Assembly: GCA_946481475.1 (NCBI GenBank)
Contig: CAMLOB010000277.1
Location: 1 to 5,931, forward strand
Direction: 5' to 3'
DNA: 5,931 nucleotides
Origin: an uncultured Chlorobiota bacterium
GTDB lineage: Bacteria > Bacteroidota > Kapaibacteriia > OLB7
Below are positions 1-5,931 of this stretch, one piece after another; positions within the stretch are counted from its first letter, which is position 1, and each line of letters starts with the position of its first letter. The position numbers and the translations under genes are program-made. Under the pieces are notes generated by a model, which worked only from the letters and a program-made list of their open reading frames with translations, was not told the origin of the DNA and did no database searches.

Positions 1-933
1 CACCTCGGCCGGCAGCGAGCAGTTGACCATCCAGCCGATTCCGAACCGGTCGACCGTGTAGAGGAGCTTGCCTGCGACCAGAAACGCCCCGTAGGAAGAG
101 AGGGGGAGTCCGTCTCCTCCCTCAAATCCCCTCCCTCCCTGCCACGCGAATTCACCTTCGTAATCGAAGGGGGCGATCGATCCGCGAACAAACGTTCCGG
201 CCGTGATCCGGTTCCGGGCCTGCGATCCGGAGTCCTCTCCGCGAGGAAGTGCCCGCGTGTCGTTGTCGTACAGCGCAAAGACATCCCCCTTGTGGTTTCC
301 ACCGAAGTTCAGCGAACTCCAGAGACCGTACAGATTCGTCGAGAAGAGATCGTCCAGCCGCTCAAGCGAATCGGTTTCAATGCCGAAGCCGAGGCGTGAG
401 GCGAAGAGATCGACCGATCCCCAGTCATCTGCGGTCCGGAGTCTGATCGCATCGAACGACCGGCCGACATTGCTCCAGCCGACCGCACCGATCAGCCGCT
501 CATTCCCGTAGATCATCTCCTGCCGACCGATCTGCAGGTCCAGACCGGAGCCGAGAAGATCGGGAAGGCGGACAAACGCCTGATGCACATCGAGCCGGTC
601 GGCACTTCCGTCCATAGTGCTCTGCTCCTCACCGAAGGTGCGTGAATCCTGAATCACCATGACCCCTTCCACATCATCAGTCGGCGAGAAGAAGATCCCG
701 GCACGGGTACGCAAAAGATGAAAATCTCCGAACCGATCCCCCCCATCCTCCGCGACACGTCGTCCGTCGGCCTCGAAACGATAGCGGATCTCGCCGCTGA
801 ACTTCACCACCCGCTCCCGTACCGCAATGTCTGCCGTCTCCTGTCCCATCAACCCGGTCTGACCGCTGAGGAAGAACGTCGCCAGCAGGAAGGGGACCGG
901 CAGGATCTGCCGAAACCGTCTGTTCGCATTCAT
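1..933 (-). CDS. Alginate-export-family outer-membrane porin, N-terminal part (cut by left edge)
   Basis: An open frame of 311 codons starts at ATG 933-931 and runs off the left edge without a stop, so the C-terminal part of the barrel is missing. The N-terminus looks like a Sec signal peptide: basic start (RRFR, residues 5-8), hydrophobic stretch at about 10-23, and likely cleavage near residue 30 (LMG-QET). The mature part alternates short strands and polar turns, as in a beta barrel. Residues about 133-166 hold the family-like segment IGRQEMIYGNERLIG, then W153 and GRSFDAIRLR, which I recognise from alginate-export-type (AlgE/OprD-like superfamily) porins. Known members form outer-membrane channels for anionic or polymeric substrates; the substrate here is unknown. 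It lies 222 bp downstream of the nrfD-like gene in the same orientation, so passage of nitrate or nitrite is possible but only inferred. The ribosome site is weak (AGAAGATCCT before ATG), which leaves the start slightly uncertain. Confidence 0.85.
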   Translation of the reverse strand, partial: MNANRRFRQILPVPFLLATFFLSGQTGLMGQETADIAVRERVVKFSGEIRYRFEADGRRVAEDGGDRFGDFHLLRTRAGIFFSPTDDVEGVMVIQDSRTFGEEQSTMDGSADRLDVHQAFVRLPDLLGSGLDLQIGRQEMIYGNERLIGAVGWSNVGRSFDAIRLRTADDWGSVDLFASRLGFGIETDSLERLDDLFSTNLYGLWSSLNFGGNHKGDVFALYDNDTRALPRGEDSGSQARNRITAGTFVRGSIAPFDYEGEFAWQGGRGFEGGDGLPLSSYGAFLVAGKLLYTVDRFGIGWMVNCSLPAEV

Positions 934-1155: not shown

Positions 1156-2421
1156 TTAGTGATGCTTGTCGAAACGAACGTGTCCCAGTTCTATCGGGAC
1201 GGCGATTCTGACCAGCAGGGTAAAGACGAAGGCGCCGAAGGCCCAGACGCCGACGGTAACGGCGATCTCCACCCAGCTCGGCGAGTATTCCACAATCTGT
1301 CCCCACTGTCCGGGGATAAATCCCGGAACGATCAGTCCCATCCCCTTCTCGATCCAGATGCCGAGGAAGAGAAGGGCGCAGGCCCAGTTCAGCAACCGGA
1401 GGTTCTTGCGGAAGCGATGAATCGTCAGTGCGGCGGTCGCCAGGACGTTCAGCGTGATCCCGGTCCAGATCCACGGGACAAGACTGTTGTGTCCTTCCAG
1501 ACCGAAGAAGAGGTAGAGCGCACTGGCGCTGTGTTCGGTCGGCGCGTAGAACTCCTTGAAGATTTCCGAACCGAGCATGATCAGGTTGATCTGCGCGGCA
1601 ACGGTAACGATCAACGCGATCTTGTTCAGGGTTTCGGTCTTGATGTCGTAGTCGGTGTTGCGACGGATAAAGCCGAGGATCAGAATGATGAGGGCGGGAC
1701 CGGCGGCAAACGCCGAGGCAAGGAACCGGGGACCGAGGAGAGAGGAGTTCCAGAAAGGACGGGAGGGAAGACCGGCGTAGAGGAATGCCGTGACCATGTG
1801 GATGCCGACCGCCCAGAAGACCGAGAGGAAGACACCGGGGAGATAGATCTTCGGGTTCGGATGTTCCCCCCTGTAATGCTTCCAGAGGATGTAGGCCGGG
1901 ATGGTGAGGTTGATGAAGAGATAGCCGTTGAGGACGATCACATCCCAGGCCAGCATCGACTGAGGCCAGTTGAACAGACCGATTCCCGGAATCAGATGCC
2001 ACATCCGGGCCGGTCCACCGAGATCGACCACGACGAAACTGAGACACATCATCAACGCGGCAACGGCAAGTCCCTCGCCGATCAGCACGGCCCCCTTGAA
2101 ATCCACATCTTTCAGGACGTAGGCCGGCAACACAAGCATGACCGCCGCCGCTGCAACGCCGACAAGGAATGTGAAGTTTGAAATGTAGAGTCCCCAACTG
2201 ACATGATCGTTCATCCCGGTCGCCCCCAGCCCTTCGCGCAACTGCACCGAGTAGGCAAAGGCACCCAGAAGCATCAGAAAGGTCAGCGATCCCATCCAGA
2301 GATGGTAGCGTGCCCCCCCGGAGGTAACGGAGTTGAAGGCGTCGCGGATGAAAGAGCGGAGGACCGATATCGATGATACCGATTCGTTTCGTTCCGTTCC
2401 GGCTATTGTCTTGCTTCTCAT
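1156..2421 (-). CDS. nrfD: NrfD/PsrC-family ten-helix quinol-interacting membrane subunit (DsrP-like)
   Basis: This is a 421-residue polytopic membrane protein. About ten hydrophobic segments are visible, near residues 40-60, 77-100, 112-132, 157-180, 194-216, 231-252, 265-287, 311-334, 343-365 and 383-408. That fits the longer ten-helix NrfD branch (DsrP, HmcC, ActC, QrcD) better than the shorter eight-helix NrfD/PsrC. The segment NDHVSWGLYISNFTFLVG at residues 71-88 and the EIFKEFY motif at 286-292 are family-like. It has no heme motif. Family members exchange electrons between membrane quinones and a partner iron-sulfur protein, which here is encoded just upstream with an 81-bp gap. In this operon it probably oxidises quinol and feeds the Nap cytochromes, taking the place of NapC. 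The start at 2421 is preceded by GGAAGAG at 2425-2431. Family assignment is firm; quinol oxidation towards nitrate is inferred from context. Confidence 0.9.
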   Translation of the reverse strand: MRSKTIAGTERNESVSSISVLRSFIRDAFNSVTSGGARYHLWMGSLTFLMLLGAFAYSVQLREGLGATGMNDHVSWGLYISNFTFLVGVAAAAVMLVLPAYVLKDVDFKGAVLIGEGLAVAALMMCLSFVVVDLGGPARMWHLIPGIGLFNWPQSMLAWDVIVLNGYLFINLTIPAYILWKHYRGEHPNPKIYLPGVFLSVFWAVGIHMVTAFLYAGLPSRPFWNSSLLGPRFLASAFAAGPALIILILGFIRRNTDYDIKTETLNKIALIVTVAAQINLIMLGSEIFKEFYAPTEHSASALYLFFGLEGHNSLVPWIWTGITLNVLATAALTIHRFRKNLRLLNWACALLFLGIWIEKGMGLIVPGFIPGQWGQIVEYSPSWVEIAVTVGVWAFGAFVFTLLVRIAVPIELGHVRFDKHH

Positions 2422-2502
2422 GGTCTCTTCCGTTGCTGCATTTCGAACGTTGGATGTCGGCGGGTCGCATCGAAGGGCGTACCCGGACGGAGGCTCCGGT
2501 CG

Positions 2503-3546
2503 CTAATCCATGAAGTACCAGAATTTCGGTTCCGTCCCCAGATCTTCCTTCAGCCGGAAGACTTTCTTGTTCTTCAGCACCCAGCGGATCGTGCTGTCCG
2601 GATCGAGCAGATTTCCGAAGATGCGGGCCCCCGTAGGACAGGCCTCCACACAGGCCGGGTTTCTCCCCTCACGCGTTCGCTGGATGCAGAACGTACACTT
2701 CTCCACCACTCCTTTCTTCCGCGGCCGGTTCCCCAGATAGTGCTGGTTCCGGTTCAGCTCCTCCTGCGGCACCACCGGCTCGTGCCAGTTGAAACGGCGG
2801 GCGTGATACGGACAGGCCGCCTCGCAGTACCGACAGCCGATGCACCAGTCGTAGTCGACCACCACGATCCCGTCCTTCTCCTTCCACGTCGCCTTCACCG
2901 GACAGACGTCGACGCAGGGAGGGTTCTCGCACTGGAAGCACTGCGTGCCGACATAGAAGTGTCCGGCCGCCGGAACTTCGTGATAGAAATCGGTCTCCGC
3001 TCCGTGGAAGTTCAGACTGCCGTTCTCCAGTTCATGGATCTGGATATACTGCATCCCCGACTTCCTGTCCTGATTGTTCTCGGCGATGCAGGCGGTGACG
3101 CAATCCATGTAGCCCTTGCATCGGGAGATGTTGAAGGCATAGCCGTAGAGGACCCGGTCACGCGGACCGGTGGCGGCGATATTCACCGATCCGGGATTGT
3201 TCTTCTCGTACAGTCGTTCCAGTCGCGTTACCGTCTCCTCTTTCTCCTCATCGTTCATCAGACGGAAGTTCTTCTTGAAGTAATCCTCCCACTCCAGCTC
3301 CGCCTTCTCCGAATCGCCGAACGGACTGCAGGCGGCGTTGAGAAGGCCGAGACCGGCCATCAGGCTTCCGGCGATCGAGCTCATGGCGCTGCGGCGATCA
3401 AGCTTCCGCTCGAAAAAAAGTTCGTAGCCGTTCTTTCCGACCTCGGATTCATCGCTGCAACCACACCCGCCGCCGTTGCAACCGCACGAGGTGTTGTTCT
3501 CGCGGTGAAGAATCGGCAGGCTCCTGTCTTCCTGATTTCGGTTCAT
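2503..3546 (-). CDS. Four-cluster [Fe-S] electron-transfer subunit (NrfC/DsrO/ActB-like) with Tat-like signal
   Basis: This 347-residue ferredoxin-type subunit should wire the NrfD-like membrane protein to the cytochromes. Four Cys groups are visible: C143/C149/C153, C203/C206/C211/C215 (CFQCENPPCVDVC), C235/C238/C241/C245 (CIGCRYCEAAC) and C284/C287/C299/C303. The first group reads CxxYxxCxxxC: Y146 sits where the second Cys is expected, so one centre may be [3Fe-4S], as known for NarH (Trp substitution) and reported for ActB. Residues 50-73 look like a Tat signal (DRRSAMS, then a Gly/Ala/Leu-rich stretch) ending in a lipobox-like LNAAC with C73. It is preceded by an unusually long 49-residue tail containing CGCNGGGCGC (21-30). 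The gene sits between the tetraheme lipoprotein gene (96-bp gap) and the nrfD-like gene (81-bp gap). A GGAG lies 12 nt before ATG 3546. Cofactor content and periplasmic location are inferred from motifs. Confidence 0.9.
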   Translation of the reverse strand: MNRNQEDRSLPILHRENNTSCGCNGGGCGCSDESEVGKNGYELFFERKLDRRSAMSSIAGSLMAGLGLLNAACSPFGDSEKAELEWEDYFKKNFRLMNDEEKEETVTRLERLYEKNNPGSVNIAATGPRDRVLYGYAFNISRCKGYMDCVTACIAENNQDRKSGMQYIQIHELENGSLNFHGAETDFYHEVPAAGHFYVGTQCFQCENPPCVDVCPVKATWKEKDGIVVVDYDWCIGCRYCEAACPYHARRFNWHEPVVPQEELNRNQHYLGNRPRKKGVVEKCTFCIQRTREGRNPACVEACPTGARIFGNLLDPDSTIRWVLKNKKVFRLKEDLGTEPKFWYFMD

Positions 3547-3642
3547 ATCACTCTTTCGCTCCGTGATCTTCGATTGACAGCCAACTCCCTTCTCATCAGC
3601 GGCACGTCGGACGTTTCCGTGGCGATGGAAGGACTCGTTTCT

Positions 3643-4317
3643 CTACTCTTTCTCCCGCACCGCCCGGCTTGCCCGTGCGGGGAACCGTATCGGAAACCCG
3701 GGATCGTGCGGGTTGTGGCAGGAGGTGCATGGAGCCGCCACCCGCGGAGGAGCCCAGCCTCCGAGTCGCTTGCCGTGCGCACCGCCGACCCAGTCGGCCG
3801 CCTGCGTTGCGTGACACTGGGCGCAGAGGCGATAGCTTTCGTCGAAAGCGATCCGCTCGCCACTTATAAGCCGGAGAGAATCGGTCTGCTCCGGATCGTG
3901 ACAGGTCTGACAGTTCATGATCTCGGCCGGGGCGTGATGGAGTTCCATCTCCCAGTGAGCACGAGCCAGTCCGGGATCGGGAGACTGCATTCGGCTCAAC
4001 GGCACCGTGTGGCACTCGCCGCAGTTGAACCGCTCGATGCTGTCGGTCCGGCGCGCCACAAAGAACGTGTCGACATCGCCGAGTTCCATTCCCGTCACCC
4101 GGTCATACCGCACTCCCTCGATCCAGCGATCGGATGTCAGACCGGCATTGTTGTTCGGCTCGACCGCTTCTTCCAGTTGTTCCAGTACCGAATGATGTCC
4201 CTTCGGTCCCTCATGTTCTCCCCCGCCGCAGCCGATCAGCAGGAAGATCGCCGGCAGAATCGCAAGGAACGATCCCCGACGGTTTCCTCCACGCTTCTTT
4301 TCTCTTCGATGGTTCAT
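3643..4317 (-). CDS. Tetraheme c-type cytochrome lipoprotein
   Basis: This is a 224-residue protein with a basic N-terminus (residues 1-14), a hydrophobic stretch (16-29) and a clear lipobox LIGC ending at C30, so it is probably a lipid-anchored periplasmic protein. Four CxxCH heme-binding motifs follow: CGECH 99-103, CQTCH 136-140, CAQCH 165-169 and CTSCH 197-201. Extra His residues at 121, 127, 128, 181 and 204 could be distal ligands. The CTSCHNPHDPG ending resembles multiheme cytochromes of the c3/DmsE-like kind, but I do not recognise a named family. Its ATG (4317-4315) overlaps the TGA of the NapB-like gene by the sequence ATGA, and GGGAGGAG stands 10 nt upstream, so the two are translationally coupled. 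By position it would carry electrons from the iron-sulfur subunit to the NapB-like cytochrome, a role NapC or NapM fills elsewhere. The exact partner is inferred. Confidence 0.9.
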   Translation of the reverse strand: MNHRREKKRGGNRRGSFLAILPAIFLLIGCGGGEHEGPKGHHSVLEQLEEAVEPNNNAGLTSDRWIEGVRYDRVTGMELGDVDTFFVARRTDSIERFNCGECHTVPLSRMQSPDPGLARAHWEMELHHAPAEIMNCQTCHDPEQTDSLRLISGERIAFDESYRLCAQCHATQAADWVGGAHGKRLGGWAPPRVAAPCTSCHNPHDPGFPIRFPARASRAVREKE

Positions 4318-5018
4318 GGCAGCTTGTCTCCTCCCGGTCGTTCCCAGATAGCGTCATCGGAAGAAAGTGCGTGACACTGGCGGCAGTTGACCCGCTCCGG
4401 ATGAGTCGTCCTGATCTCCTCGACCGCTCCGGGACCGGCATGACAGCTCAGGCAGTTTTCCCGCATCCTGAGCCGGTGCGGAATCGGCGGCGGACCGGTC
4501 GGCAACGCCTGTCCGTCGAGAGAAGGATAATCGACCGGCTGGAACAGATTGGCCCGGAACGTCCCCTCGACCCGTGCGGGATTGTGGCATTGACGGCAGT
4601 TCTTCAGGTCGGGATGGGGGGTGACCGGCGTGAAGGCGTTGAACTTCGGGACGTAGCCCCCCTTGCCGTGGCACGTCAGACAGTGATCGCCGCCGAGACT
4701 CCGGTCATCTTCCACCTCGTGCGGAATCATCGGAGGTCCCCCGGGATAGGCGCGACGCGCATGGAACATCGCCAGCGTCCGGCTCCCCTCCTCACTCGAT
4801 TTCAGATAGCTCAACGCCTCGGCTCCGGACTGAAAGCCGGAGACTTCACCGGCAAGCCGACTCGGCTCGGCCGGCCGCAGCACTTCTCCTTCCTCTCTGC
4901 CTGCCGACACTTCCTCGATCAGACTCTCGCCGACGACAACGATACCGGATGCCATCAGCACGATGCAGAGTCCGATGACGACATACCGTCGTTCAGGTCC
5001 TCTTTTCATCCGCTTCAT
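4314..5018 (-). CDS. napB: NapB-like cytochrome with duplicated diheme module (four hemes)
   Basis: Starting at ATG 5018, this is 234 residues. A basic N-terminus (MKRMKRGPERR) and a hydrophobic stretch (about 12-30) form a signal peptide or anchor. Two similar modules follow. Module 1 has RAYPGGPPMIPH (His 100), CLTCH 113-117, TPH (His 135) and CRQCH 141-145. Module 2 has GPPPIPH (His 181), CLSCH 189-193, TTH (His 206) and CRQCH 212-216. The order 'PPxIPH, CLxCH, P/T-H, C-x-QCH' is the signature of NapB, the diheme electron donor to NapA, and ordinary NapB carries it once. Here it is doubled, giving four bis-His-type hemes. The start at 5018 is preferred over ATG 5048: it gives an ATGA overlap with the napA stop and has GGAGAAG 8 nt upstream, whereas 5048 would overlap napA by 34 bp with no ribosome site. 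The role as NapA partner is strongly supported by adjacency. Confidence 0.88.
   Translation of the reverse strand: MKRMKRGPERRYVVIGLCIVLMASGIVVVGESLIEEVSAGREEGEVLRPAEPSRLAGEVSGFQSGAEALSYLKSSEEGSRTLAMFHARRAYPGGPPMIPHEVEDDRSLGGDHCLTCHGKGGYVPKFNAFTPVTPHPDLKNCRQCHNPARVEGTFRANLFQPVDYPSLDGQALPTGPPPIPHRLRMRENCLSCHAGPGAVEEIRTTHPERVNCRQCHALSSDDAIWERPGGDKLP
4328..4335 (-). promoter_or_regulatory. Strong ribosome binding site for the tetraheme lipoprotein gene
   Basis: GGGAGGAG on the minus strand lies 10 nt before ATG 4317 and inside the last codons of the NapB-like gene. Together with the ATGA overlap it supports the start at 4317 and translational coupling. Confidence 0.65.
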
Positions 5019-5931
5019 GCGACGATCTTCTCCAGCCGTACGGCGCATTTCTTGTAATCGGGTTGCTTCGAGATCGGACAGAAGGCGTCGAGCGTCAACT
5101 CGTTGATCAGGTAGGACTCGTCGAAGAAGGGGACGAAGACCTGTCCCGGCGTGGGCAATCCCCGACCGTTGATCGACGCCGGCAACACAAGTTCGCCCCG
5201 CCTCGTCACCAGCTTCACCCGTTCACCGTCGTTGATGCCGAAGCGGACGGCATCCTCCGGATGGATCTCCACATAGGCGTTCGGGACCGCACGGTGGAGG
5301 ATCGGCACCCGGCGCGTCATCGATCCGGTGTGCCAGTGTTCAAGGACGCGTCCGGTGTTCAGCCAGAAAGGATAGTCGTCATCGGGGACTTCCGGAGCCG
5401 GTTCGTAGGGACGCAGCCAGAGCCAGGCCCGGTGATCCGGCTTGCCGTAGAAGTCGTACGGACTGTTGCCGACCGTCTGTTTTGCCGCCGGATCGTAGTC
5501 TGCGTTGTATCGCCACTTCGTCTCCTTTCCATCCACAAAAGGCCAGATCACTCCCGGACGTTCTTTCAGCAATTCATAGGGGGCCATGCCATGTTTCGCT
5601 CCCTCCTGGAACCGGCTGTACTCTTTCCAGATCTCTTCGATGTGCGTCTCGTAGCTCCACGGGAAAAGGTCTCCGTAGCCGAGTCTTCGGGCCACCTCGA
5701 TCAACTGCCATCCGTCGCTCATCGCCTCTCCCGGAGGCGTGAGCATTTGCTGAAAATGCTGTGTCCGTCGCTCGGAATTGCCGAACATTCCCTCCCGTTC
5801 GATCCACATGGCCGAAGGGAGAATCACGTCGGCGATGTCGGTTGTCGGCGTCGGGTAGACATCGGAGACGACCACGAAACGTCCCTCCTTCAACGCCCCC
5901 TCACGGTAGCGTTTCAGCTTCGGCATCGTCA
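5015..5931 (-). CDS. napA: Periplasmic nitrate reductase catalytic subunit NapA, C-terminal ~305 residues (cut by right edge)
   Basis: The frame is open to the right edge. The ATG at 5926 is an internal Met (T-MPKLKRY), so this is the C-terminal third or so of a protein normally around 800 residues. NapA reduces nitrate to nitrite at a bis-MGD molybdenum site in the periplasm. Counting from that Met, recognisable segments are FVVVSDVYPTPTTDIADVIL (17-36), MWIEREGMFGNSERRTQ (40-56), the molydopterin-binding domain motif LNTGRVLEHWHTGSMTRR (189-206), NAYVEIHPEDA (216-226) and the ending FVPFFDE...LTLDAFCPISKQ (264-288) then YKKCAVRLE (291-299). These match NapA closely. The LEHWHTGSMTRR block and the adjoining cytochrome genes argue against assimilatory NasA. 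The Tat signal, N-terminal [4Fe-4S] motif and Mo-ligand Cys lie outside the window. The stop overlaps the next gene as ATGA. Confidence 0.96.
   Translation of the reverse strand, partial: TMPKLKRYREGALKEGRFVVVSDVYPTPTTDIADVILPSAMWIEREGMFGNSERRTQHFQQMLTPPGEAMSDGWQLIEVARRLGYGDLFPWSYETHIEEIWKEYSRFQEGAKHGMAPYELLKERPGVIWPFVDGKETKWRYNADYDPAAKQTVGNSPYDFYGKPDHRAWLWLRPYEPAPEVPDDDYPFWLNTGRVLEHWHTGSMTRRVPILHRAVPNAYVEIHPEDAVRFGINDGERVKLVTRRGELVLPASINGRGLPTPGQVFVPFFDESYLINELTLDAFCPISKQPDYKKCAVRLEKIVA
5027..5033 (-). promoter_or_regulatory. Ribosome binding site that decides the NapB-like start
   Basis: GGAGAAG on the minus strand lies 8 nt upstream of ATG 5018, within the last codons of napA. The alternative in-frame ATG at 5048 has no purine-rich site before it, so 5018 is the better start. 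Confidence 0.6.

Follow-up and report, generated by a model that had tools for sequence, protein, structure and literature searches.

Periplasmic nitrate reductase (Nap) is usually described as receiving its electrons from quinol through NapC or NapGH, with Qcr and others treated as special cases, and its quinol step is usually called non-coupling. Here, we describe a nap operon on a stretch of 5,931 nucleotides from an uncultured Chlorobiota bacterium (contig CAMLOB010000277.1; the whole stretch is referred to as the window), in which napA is followed by genes for a tandem (double) NapB, a tetraheme cytochrome c lipoprotein, an Fe-S subunit and a DsrP-like membrane subunit of the NrfD family. 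The operon shares with canonical Nap, as encoded by napFDAGHBC in E. coli and napEFDABC in alphaproteobacteria, the NapA model, NapD and the NapB pattern, while it differs in its four-heme NapB, in a putative quinol module made up of NrfD, Fe-S and tetraheme proteins, and in the lack of NapC or NapGH from the operon. Together with its relatives in several phyla, it is a real, widespread but sparse Nap variant assembled from known parts.

The module accompanying NapA has likenesses among several described systems. In DsrMKJOP the gene order is J-O-P, and DsrJOP also combines a cytochrome, an Fe-S protein and an NrfD protein, with the window NrfD passing the DsrP cut-off. The present module differs in its nap neighbours, its tetraheme cytochrome, the retention of the first Fe-S motif and the separate clade of its NrfD; no DsrMK is found in the window, and the neighbours in related loci of the same class (class A) are nap genes. 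E. coli NrfBCD likewise uses a multiheme cytochrome, a four-cluster Fe-S subunit and NrfD to feed a periplasmic reductase, but that reductase is NrfA, and its NrfD has eight helices (PMC12285233) and sits on a distant branch; here and below, statements cited to articles refer to excerpts of their text. A non-standard NapA cytochrome is also found in the NapMADGH type of Desulfovibrio, Caldithrix and Thermosulfurimonas, where tetraheme NapM occurs with NapGH or NapC, or with a Rieske/cytochrome b pair (PMC5317091, PMC5276818), in contrast to the tandem NapB and NrfD module described here. In T. dismutans, genes for NrfD, Fe-S and cytochrome proteins are reported close to napMADGH, together with an octaheme (PMC5276818). 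The Phycisphaerae metagenome-assembled genome (MAG) OFTM8, and also OFTM33, have an MHC-4Fe4S-nrfD cluster in the vicinity of Nap and Nxr genes, with only a general electron-transfer role given by the authors (PMC10732223); our locus L044, from OFTM8, is probably this cluster, and contains the same kind of triad, but its nap genes are divergent and its NapA and NrfD belong to other clades. Within the NrfD family more broadly, ten-helix members are described as accompanying catalytic subunits outside the standard Mo/W family (PMC6303296), whereas here a ten-helix member is paired with a Mo enzyme, though via cytochromes.

The five genes, in the order of transcription, are as follows.

5015..5929, minus strand: 3′ part of napA (304 codons in the window), encoding the catalytic periplasmic nitrate reductase
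4314..5018, minus strand: tandem (double) NapB with four CxxCH motifs and a hydrophobic N-terminal segment; the open reading frame is open from 5048
3643..4317, minus strand: tetraheme cytochrome c lipoprotein with lipobox LIGC, the likely partner cytochrome of the Fe-S/NrfD pair
2503..3546, minus strand: Fe-S subunit of the DsrO/NrfC superfamily, with a twin-arginine translocation (Tat) signal and a lipobox-like Cys73
1156..2421, minus strand: NrfD/DsrP-like ten-helix membrane subunit, with quinone-site residues Y79, D133, S155 and D160

An earlier note on this DNA had described five genes in this order and direction with the first three joined by ATGA, and that description holds: all five lie on the minus strand, and both overlaps are present, at 5018-5015 between napA and the four-heme gene and at 4317-4314 between the four-heme and tetraheme genes. 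The start of the four-heme frame is probably the ATG at 5018 that overlaps the napA stop, rather than 5048. The remaining genes are separated by gaps of 96 bases (tetraheme to Fe-S) and 81 bases (Fe-S to NrfD). At the level of family models, the window napA matches Molybdopterin and Molydop_binding in Pfam and, partially, the TIGR01706/PRK13532 NapA models, and the tetraheme lipoprotein matches Pfam Paired_CXXCH_1. The Fe-S protein matches Fer4 families, its best model being NCBIfam DsrO (NF045797) at 191.6 bits, under the cut-off of 200, while the NrfD protein matches PF03916 and NCBIfam DsrP (NF045798) at 420.1 bits, above the cut-off of 350. Protein P0001 is recorded on seven contigs, the longest of 31,305 bases.

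When species genomes were scanned with the window NrfD, at least 544 relatives were confirmed, and the locus counts below use the best 80 of these; reading frames in the 80 loci and in one plasmid locus were called and scored with window, Flammeovirga and E. coli proteins. The recurrent synteny that had been expected is present in several phyla. On a single strand, and in the window's clade, the five-gene order occurs in 13 genome loci (L002-L008, L010, L012, L014, L015, L019 and L021), with napA cut by the contig end in L004 and some frames broken in L006. The sole good match in a plasmid collection is plasmid p1 of Flammeovirga kamogawensis, where the order reads napD, molybdopterin oxidoreductase, c3-type cytochrome, four-CxxCH hypothetical protein, 4Fe-4S protein and an NrfD protein named DsrP. 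Clade members L009, L011, L013, L016 and L018 are cut by contig ends, the end of napA still being visible in L013. The napD gene, which lies outside the window, is seen in relatives, and three genomes found afterwards all carry napD, napA, four-heme, tetraheme, Fe-S and NrfD genes in that order and direction, although napD is matched weakly in L142 (19 bits). This recurrence in 13 genome loci, the Flammeovirga plasmid and all three later genomes rules out chance adjacency of the genes. Carriers belong to Bacteroidota, Calditrichota, Chloroflexota, Gemmatimonadota, Nitrospirota and deltaproteobacterial lineages. The system is sparse, since NrfD is matched at E≤1e-120 in only 2 of 201 genomes from the phylum to which L003 belongs and in 3 of 296 from that of L002, both starting genomes counted.

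We compared the NrfD proteins in a tree of 81 rows, in which the class without nap was sampled at every second locus (23 of 45) and NapH, a separate protein family, was not included. One clade, termed clade A (support 100/100), comprises the window and 20 loci, and five DsrP references form a separate one (100/99). Clade A groups with DsrP and other DsrP-like proteins at 100/99, with the internal branching order not settled, and its nearest group consists of ten tetraheme-FeS-NrfD triads without nap, nine proteobacterial and one acidobacterial (93/95, not starred). References for ActC, QrcD, HmcC/HybB and NrfD fall outside the DsrP-like group; for NrfD and HybB, only this exclusion is used, because their branches are very long. 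The earlier label of an NrfCD/DsrOP-like module is thus retained in its DsrOP half, whereas an NrfCD reading is excluded by the tree, which places the window with DsrP and away from NrfD, and by model scores. Likewise, the kinship once proposed to DsrOP, HmcBC and ActBC extends to the DsrP group but not to the ActC and HmcC references. In the NapA tree, from which L080 was left out (fragments) and where the window row fills 37% of the columns, 15 loci join the window in a clade supported at 100/100, which excludes the NapA of E. coli, Agrobacterium and Thalassobaculum. Class label A covers 17 loci, including L026, L039 and L074, which are placed in other clades and so stand outside the clade count. 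Pairwise distances of the five proteins are correlated in all ten pairs (Spearman 0.55-0.82; none of 2000 permutations as high for any pair) across 13 loci and the window, and, because these 14 rows are few and related, the correlation speaks to shared history and not to function. With the 13 loci, the plasmid, the three later genomes and the two clades each at 100/100, the proposal of a conserved Nap variant is borne out.

The window NapA is 67-78% identical to the NapA of 13 relatives. Class A NapA relatives score above the TIGR01706 cut-off in 11 of 12 genomes and in one of the three later genomes (E≤4e-197 in all three), and each of the 15 genomes has exactly one NapA locus at the thresholds used (E≤1e-100 for the 12 genomes, 1e-60 for the three), which is always the operon copy. 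Its cytochrome partner is a duplicated protein, as each half carries the NapB-like pattern PPxIPH...CxxCH...CxxCH, and the Pfam NapB model is matched at 29.1 bits against a cut-off of 25.1, passed on the first half. Using profiles of 17 loci and the window, the two halves align with each other at a probability of 99.3%; against E. coli NapB, the first half reaches 97.4% and the second 96.0%. Controls are weaker: the first half reaches 43.6% with NrfB and 6.9% with NapC, the second half 73.1% and 52.1%, and the halves reach 78.2 and 84.3% against the tetraheme protein, which itself gives 31.8% with NapB and 88.4% with NrfB. The term double NapB is therefore upheld. Heme motifs alone yield sizeable scores. 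The first half is the more clearly NapB-like of the two, and the NapB identity of the second would rest mainly on its match to the first. The protein departs from the diheme form of NapB, as four CxxCH motifs are present in the window protein and in all but one of 18 aligned clade A relatives; the exception, the L006 frame, has two CxxCH and appears broken. A database search with the four-heme protein found 3337 relatives at E≤0.001, and many among the 120 listed are named NapB by their source.

The tetraheme protein has CxxCH motifs at residues 99, 136, 165 and 197 and a lipobox from residue 27, and a relative is present in 75 of the 80 NrfD-related loci. Its description as a lipoprotein fits the window, with its LIGC lipobox, but within the clade the lipobox is confined to the non-deltaproteobacterial branch. 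In the Fe-S subunit, four cysteine motifs are present as had been claimed, although they are not equivalent: three have four Cys, while the first has three (C143, Y146, C149, C153), such that the "about four Fe-S centres" of the earlier note become three four-Cys motifs and one three-Cys motif, the latter of which may bind a [3Fe-4S] cluster. We compared this subunit by column counts and model scores, using the window together with 19 loci of clade A (L006, with its frame in pieces, was omitted) and 21 additional loci hand-picked from other classes. The first motif reads CxG[YF]xxCxxxC in 20/20 clade A proteins, with the second Cys replaced by Tyr or Phe. Among the 21 other loci, Tyr also occurs in six that are proteobacterial or acidobacterial (L020, L025, L030, L037, L048 and L072), Asn in L044 and L066, and Cys in the remaining 13, while five DsrO references are without most of the first motif and its partner Cys303. 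In 20/20 clade A proteins, a twin Arg precedes a Cys by about 22 residues, and a Cys at that column is present in 0/21 of the others and 0/5 DsrO; on the strength of this conserved pair, the subunit is probably exported by the Tat pathway as a lipoprotein. In L073 and L078, a Cys lies three positions beyond the lipobox-like column, and perhaps the trait is not confined to the window's clade. The derived first-motif and Tat-lipobox features are also present in the Fe-S proteins of all three later genomes. A Cys-rich N-terminal stretch, CGCNGGGCGC (window 3457-3486), precedes the Tat signal, with Cys there in some relatives only.

The NrfD subunit was predicted from a 26-row alignment (mean pLDDT 82.6, with three short segments below 50), and the model contains ten helices of at least 18 residues each, in line with the ten-helix protein claimed before. 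In a structure search with this model, the top-ranking solved structures are ActC chains, which share 19-20% identity with it, and a sequence search of the PDB gave four hits, all ActC-type chains and none of them DsrP. Residues of the quinone site, N-side and P-side were taken from DsrP1 (Calisto and Pereira, PMC8076601), with whose numbering the DsrP references agree in all but Lys329, which they have at 328. Across 20 clade A rows including the window (L017 being counted under "B", the no-nap label), all four quinone-site residues are conserved in 20/20. Seven of nine N-side residues are invariant, with Arg152 and Lys162 lost, and five of seven P-side residues are invariant, with Arg189 in 19/20 and Thr194 lost; in total, 17 of the 20 listed residues are retained, one of them in 19/20 rows. 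An almost identical set is retained in other triads. DsrP position 106 is Asp in clade A NrfD versus His in six ActC references, whose labels were checked against solved ActC chains (6/6 match). Misplaced sulfate-reduction genes were considered and, judged by the DsrP copies, ruled out: five of 12 genomes (G008-G012) encode, as a distinct second gene next to a DsrO-like one, a sulfate-reducer-type DsrP that scores 471-502 bits, against 385-395 bits for their nap-linked copy, and in the other seven the DsrP cut-off is passed by the nap-linked copy alone. One public record (L001:15004-16221) carries the name "sulfate reduction electron transfer complex DsrMKJOP subunit DsrP" though it lies in a nap operon, where the DsrP name over-reaches.

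The best explanation for these features, to which we assign a probability of roughly three in four, is that the operon napD-napA-double napB-tetraheme-FeS-nrfD encodes a periplasmic nitrate reductase with its own quinol module. Here, the DsrP-type NrfD would oxidize quinol at its P-side site and pass electrons to the Tat-exported Fe-S subunit and then to the tetraheme cytochrome, from which the membrane-tethered tandem NapB would deliver them to the [4Fe-4S] and Mo centers of NapA, placing eight hemes and four Fe-S clusters ahead of NapA. The sequences show the gene content and order, the common inheritance, the cofactor motifs, the tandem NapB, the DsrP-type quinone site and the frequent absence of NapC and NapH directly. 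We infer the order and direction of transfer, a single chain and its membrane anchoring, and nitrate would be the substrate given the NapA membership of the catalytic subunit.

The distribution of classical donors bears on this proposal from both sides. No NapC or NapGH lies between the operon genes, and at the thresholds used (PF03264 at E≤1e-8 for NapC/NrfH, the TIGR02163 cut-off for NapH) both families are absent from 8 of 15 carrier genomes, while NapH is present in one and the NapC/NrfH family in six. Thus, the lack of NapC and NapGH that had been predicted is frequent but not general. In the three later genomes, neither NapH (0/3 above cut-off) nor PF03264 (0/3) is found, and one genome, G346, is nearly a single contig (3,868,304 of about 3.9 million bases), which makes incompleteness an unlikely reason for the lack there; incompleteness may still account for absences in the other, draft genomes. 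Several observations weigh against the proposal. PF03264 is matched in 6 of 12 carrier genomes, with three of the hits adjoining nrfA (L089, L090 and L091), two others in G003 and G007, and the last in L012, where a NapC/NrfH-like gene and an octaheme Hao-like gene lie side by side upstream of napD. NapH passes its cut-off in 1 of 12 (that of L014; weaker hits occur in 12/12, and in 12/14 controls), where napGH lies about 3 kb past nrfD on the opposite strand. With L012 and L014, napC or napGH next to napA, the refuting case named in the earlier note, is encountered in a weak form. In L017, from a chromosome-level Desulfobacterales record, positions 8657-11167 hold the 3′ part of a truncated tetraheme gene, the Fe-S gene and an nrfD of the nap clade, with no NapA or four-heme match by tblastn in the stretch; this sole exception in the clade may be a decayed copy or a module serving another partner. 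Moreover, because the triad adjoins other genes elsewhere, it is a general quinol module, and linkage to nap alone is no proof of use. Finally, ActC is present in six of the seven genomes searched with PF03916 (G001, G005, G007, G008, G009 and G010), one copy in each matching solved ActC chains with best scores of 451-728 bits, and alternative complex III could feed periplasmic cytochromes.

These observations lend some weight to other explanations. The triad might serve another periplasmic acceptor, such as nitrite via an octaheme or NrfA, and be merely co-transcribed, with NapA fed elsewhere. Triad relatives do stand beside octaheme Hao-like (12/80) and large multiheme genes (20/80), and the T. 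dismutans locus was tentatively assigned to nitrite by its authors (PMC5276818). However, among the 13 napA-bearing clade loci, in the stretches read, the octaheme of that cluster occurs only in L012; NapA would be left without NapC-family or NapH donors in 8 of 15 genomes; and the NapB duplication and the module have a common history, as judged by the distance correlations, all of which make this arrangement improbable. Slightly less probable again is that the double NapB is fed by alternative complex III, a bc complex or a soluble cytochrome pool, with the NrfD module accessory or redundant. The well-supported ActC in six of seven genomes strengthens this explanation and slightly lowers our estimate for the dedicated quinol module, and Campylobacter Nap is reported to use Qcr (PMC6195509). 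On the other hand, tight operonic linkage of a dedicated quinol module across phyla would then be unexpected, and in G012 no ActC is found among four NrfD-family hits. That the module works towards quinone in a Qrc-like manner, so that the operon is not a quinol-driven reductase chain, is very hard to credit, as the nitrate/nitrite potential lies far above that of quinone, NapA is the sole catalytic partner in the operon and the NrfD tree separates this subunit from QrcD. The precedent for such a direction is QrcABCD, a quinone-reducing NrfD-family member that is electrogenic without pumping (PMC6303296), and the potential of nitrate is given as +420 mV (PMC6195509).

Within the quinol-driven nitrate reductase that we favor, a further possibility, on balance doubtful, is that the DsrP-type NrfD couples quinol oxidation to charge movement, with all five proteins forming one membrane-tethered supercomplex. 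Of the half-channel residues listed for the N side and the P side, most are kept, and the drop to nitrate amounts to about half a volt. A quinol oxidase with the proton path of Qrc would cost energy unless protons exit to the P side or are pumped.

Outside the window's clade, the triad has other neighbors. Among the 80 loci, napA is present in the stretch in 30, an octaheme Hao-like gene in 12 (seven of them with nap), large multiheme or outer-membrane-type genes in 20 (none with nap), and none of these in 25, six of which belong to clade A but are truncated by a contig end or have no nap (L009, L011, L013, L016, L017 and L018). This distribution points to the tetraheme-FeS-NrfD triad as an exchangeable quinol module. 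The large-multiheme group pools six protein clusters; among the five scanned, only the OmcA/MtrC-like cluster passes its NCBIfam cut-off, the rest matching more weakly named families or none, and extracellular electron transfer is therefore a fair guess for L030 and L036 only. In these gammaproteobacterial MAGs (about 1790-17070), the triad lies among OmcA/MtrC-type decaheme and other large multiheme genes, which suggests that a related quinol module feeds extracellular electron transfer there; for the other large-multiheme loci, the same role is guesswork. In Planctomycetota and Verrucomicrobiota, napA and the four-heme NapB-like gene are often divergent from the triad and belong to other clades. 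In a proteobacterial MAG (L026:2-6817), napA, double NapB, tetraheme, Fe-S, NrfD and octaheme Hao-like genes share one operon, a possible one-operon nitrate-to-ammonium pathway. Its NapA and NrfD are both in other, Planctomycetota/Verrucomicrobiota-type clades, and the arrangement may therefore have been reached twice or be ancestral. A separate observation is a single frame of 852 aa (L133:1-2556) that fuses an HybB/HmcC-type NrfD domain to an octaheme cytochrome of the tetrathionate-reductase family, both scores being under the NCBIfam cut-offs. The remaining gene of the window, 222 bases past nrfD, is listed here.

1..933, minus strand: gene for an outer-membrane porin-like protein (Alginate_exp, PF13372), truncated at the window end; its membership in the operon is unsure

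Porins of this cluster occur near the module in 7 of 80 loci (L002, L004, L007, L044, L053, L060 and L081), making the porin a recurrent but not constant neighbor, and perhaps an outer-membrane channel for nitrate or nitrite.

Searches of the open-access literature gave us no description of this operon, although most subscription papers lie beyond such a search and its absence from print is unproven. The main text of PMC8076601 contains neither "nitrate reductase" nor a word starting with "Nap", and the excerpts of PMC12285233, PMC11896075, PMC5516251 and PMC12780646, which treat Nrf or Nap systems, do not show it. In the literature searched, the operon would therefore be a previously undescribed route built from known components. 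Searches on Flammeovirga with nitrate and on Agaribacillus gave nothing usable on carrier phenotype.

For annotation, double NapB, a Tat-lipobox Fe-S subunit with CxG[YF]xxC and a DsrP-like NrfD together provide a signature of the operon, and the DsrP name given to nap-operon proteins calls for caution. By record, strain carriers include Flammeovirga kamogawensis and Agaribacillus aureus, in which the energetics are testable. If the energy-conserving version were true, the "wasteful" nitrate reductase of textbooks would become a coupling site, as proposed for alternative complex III with oxygen. A further conserved route to NapA would explain how genomes without the classical donors, 8 of the 15 considered here, could respire nitrate.

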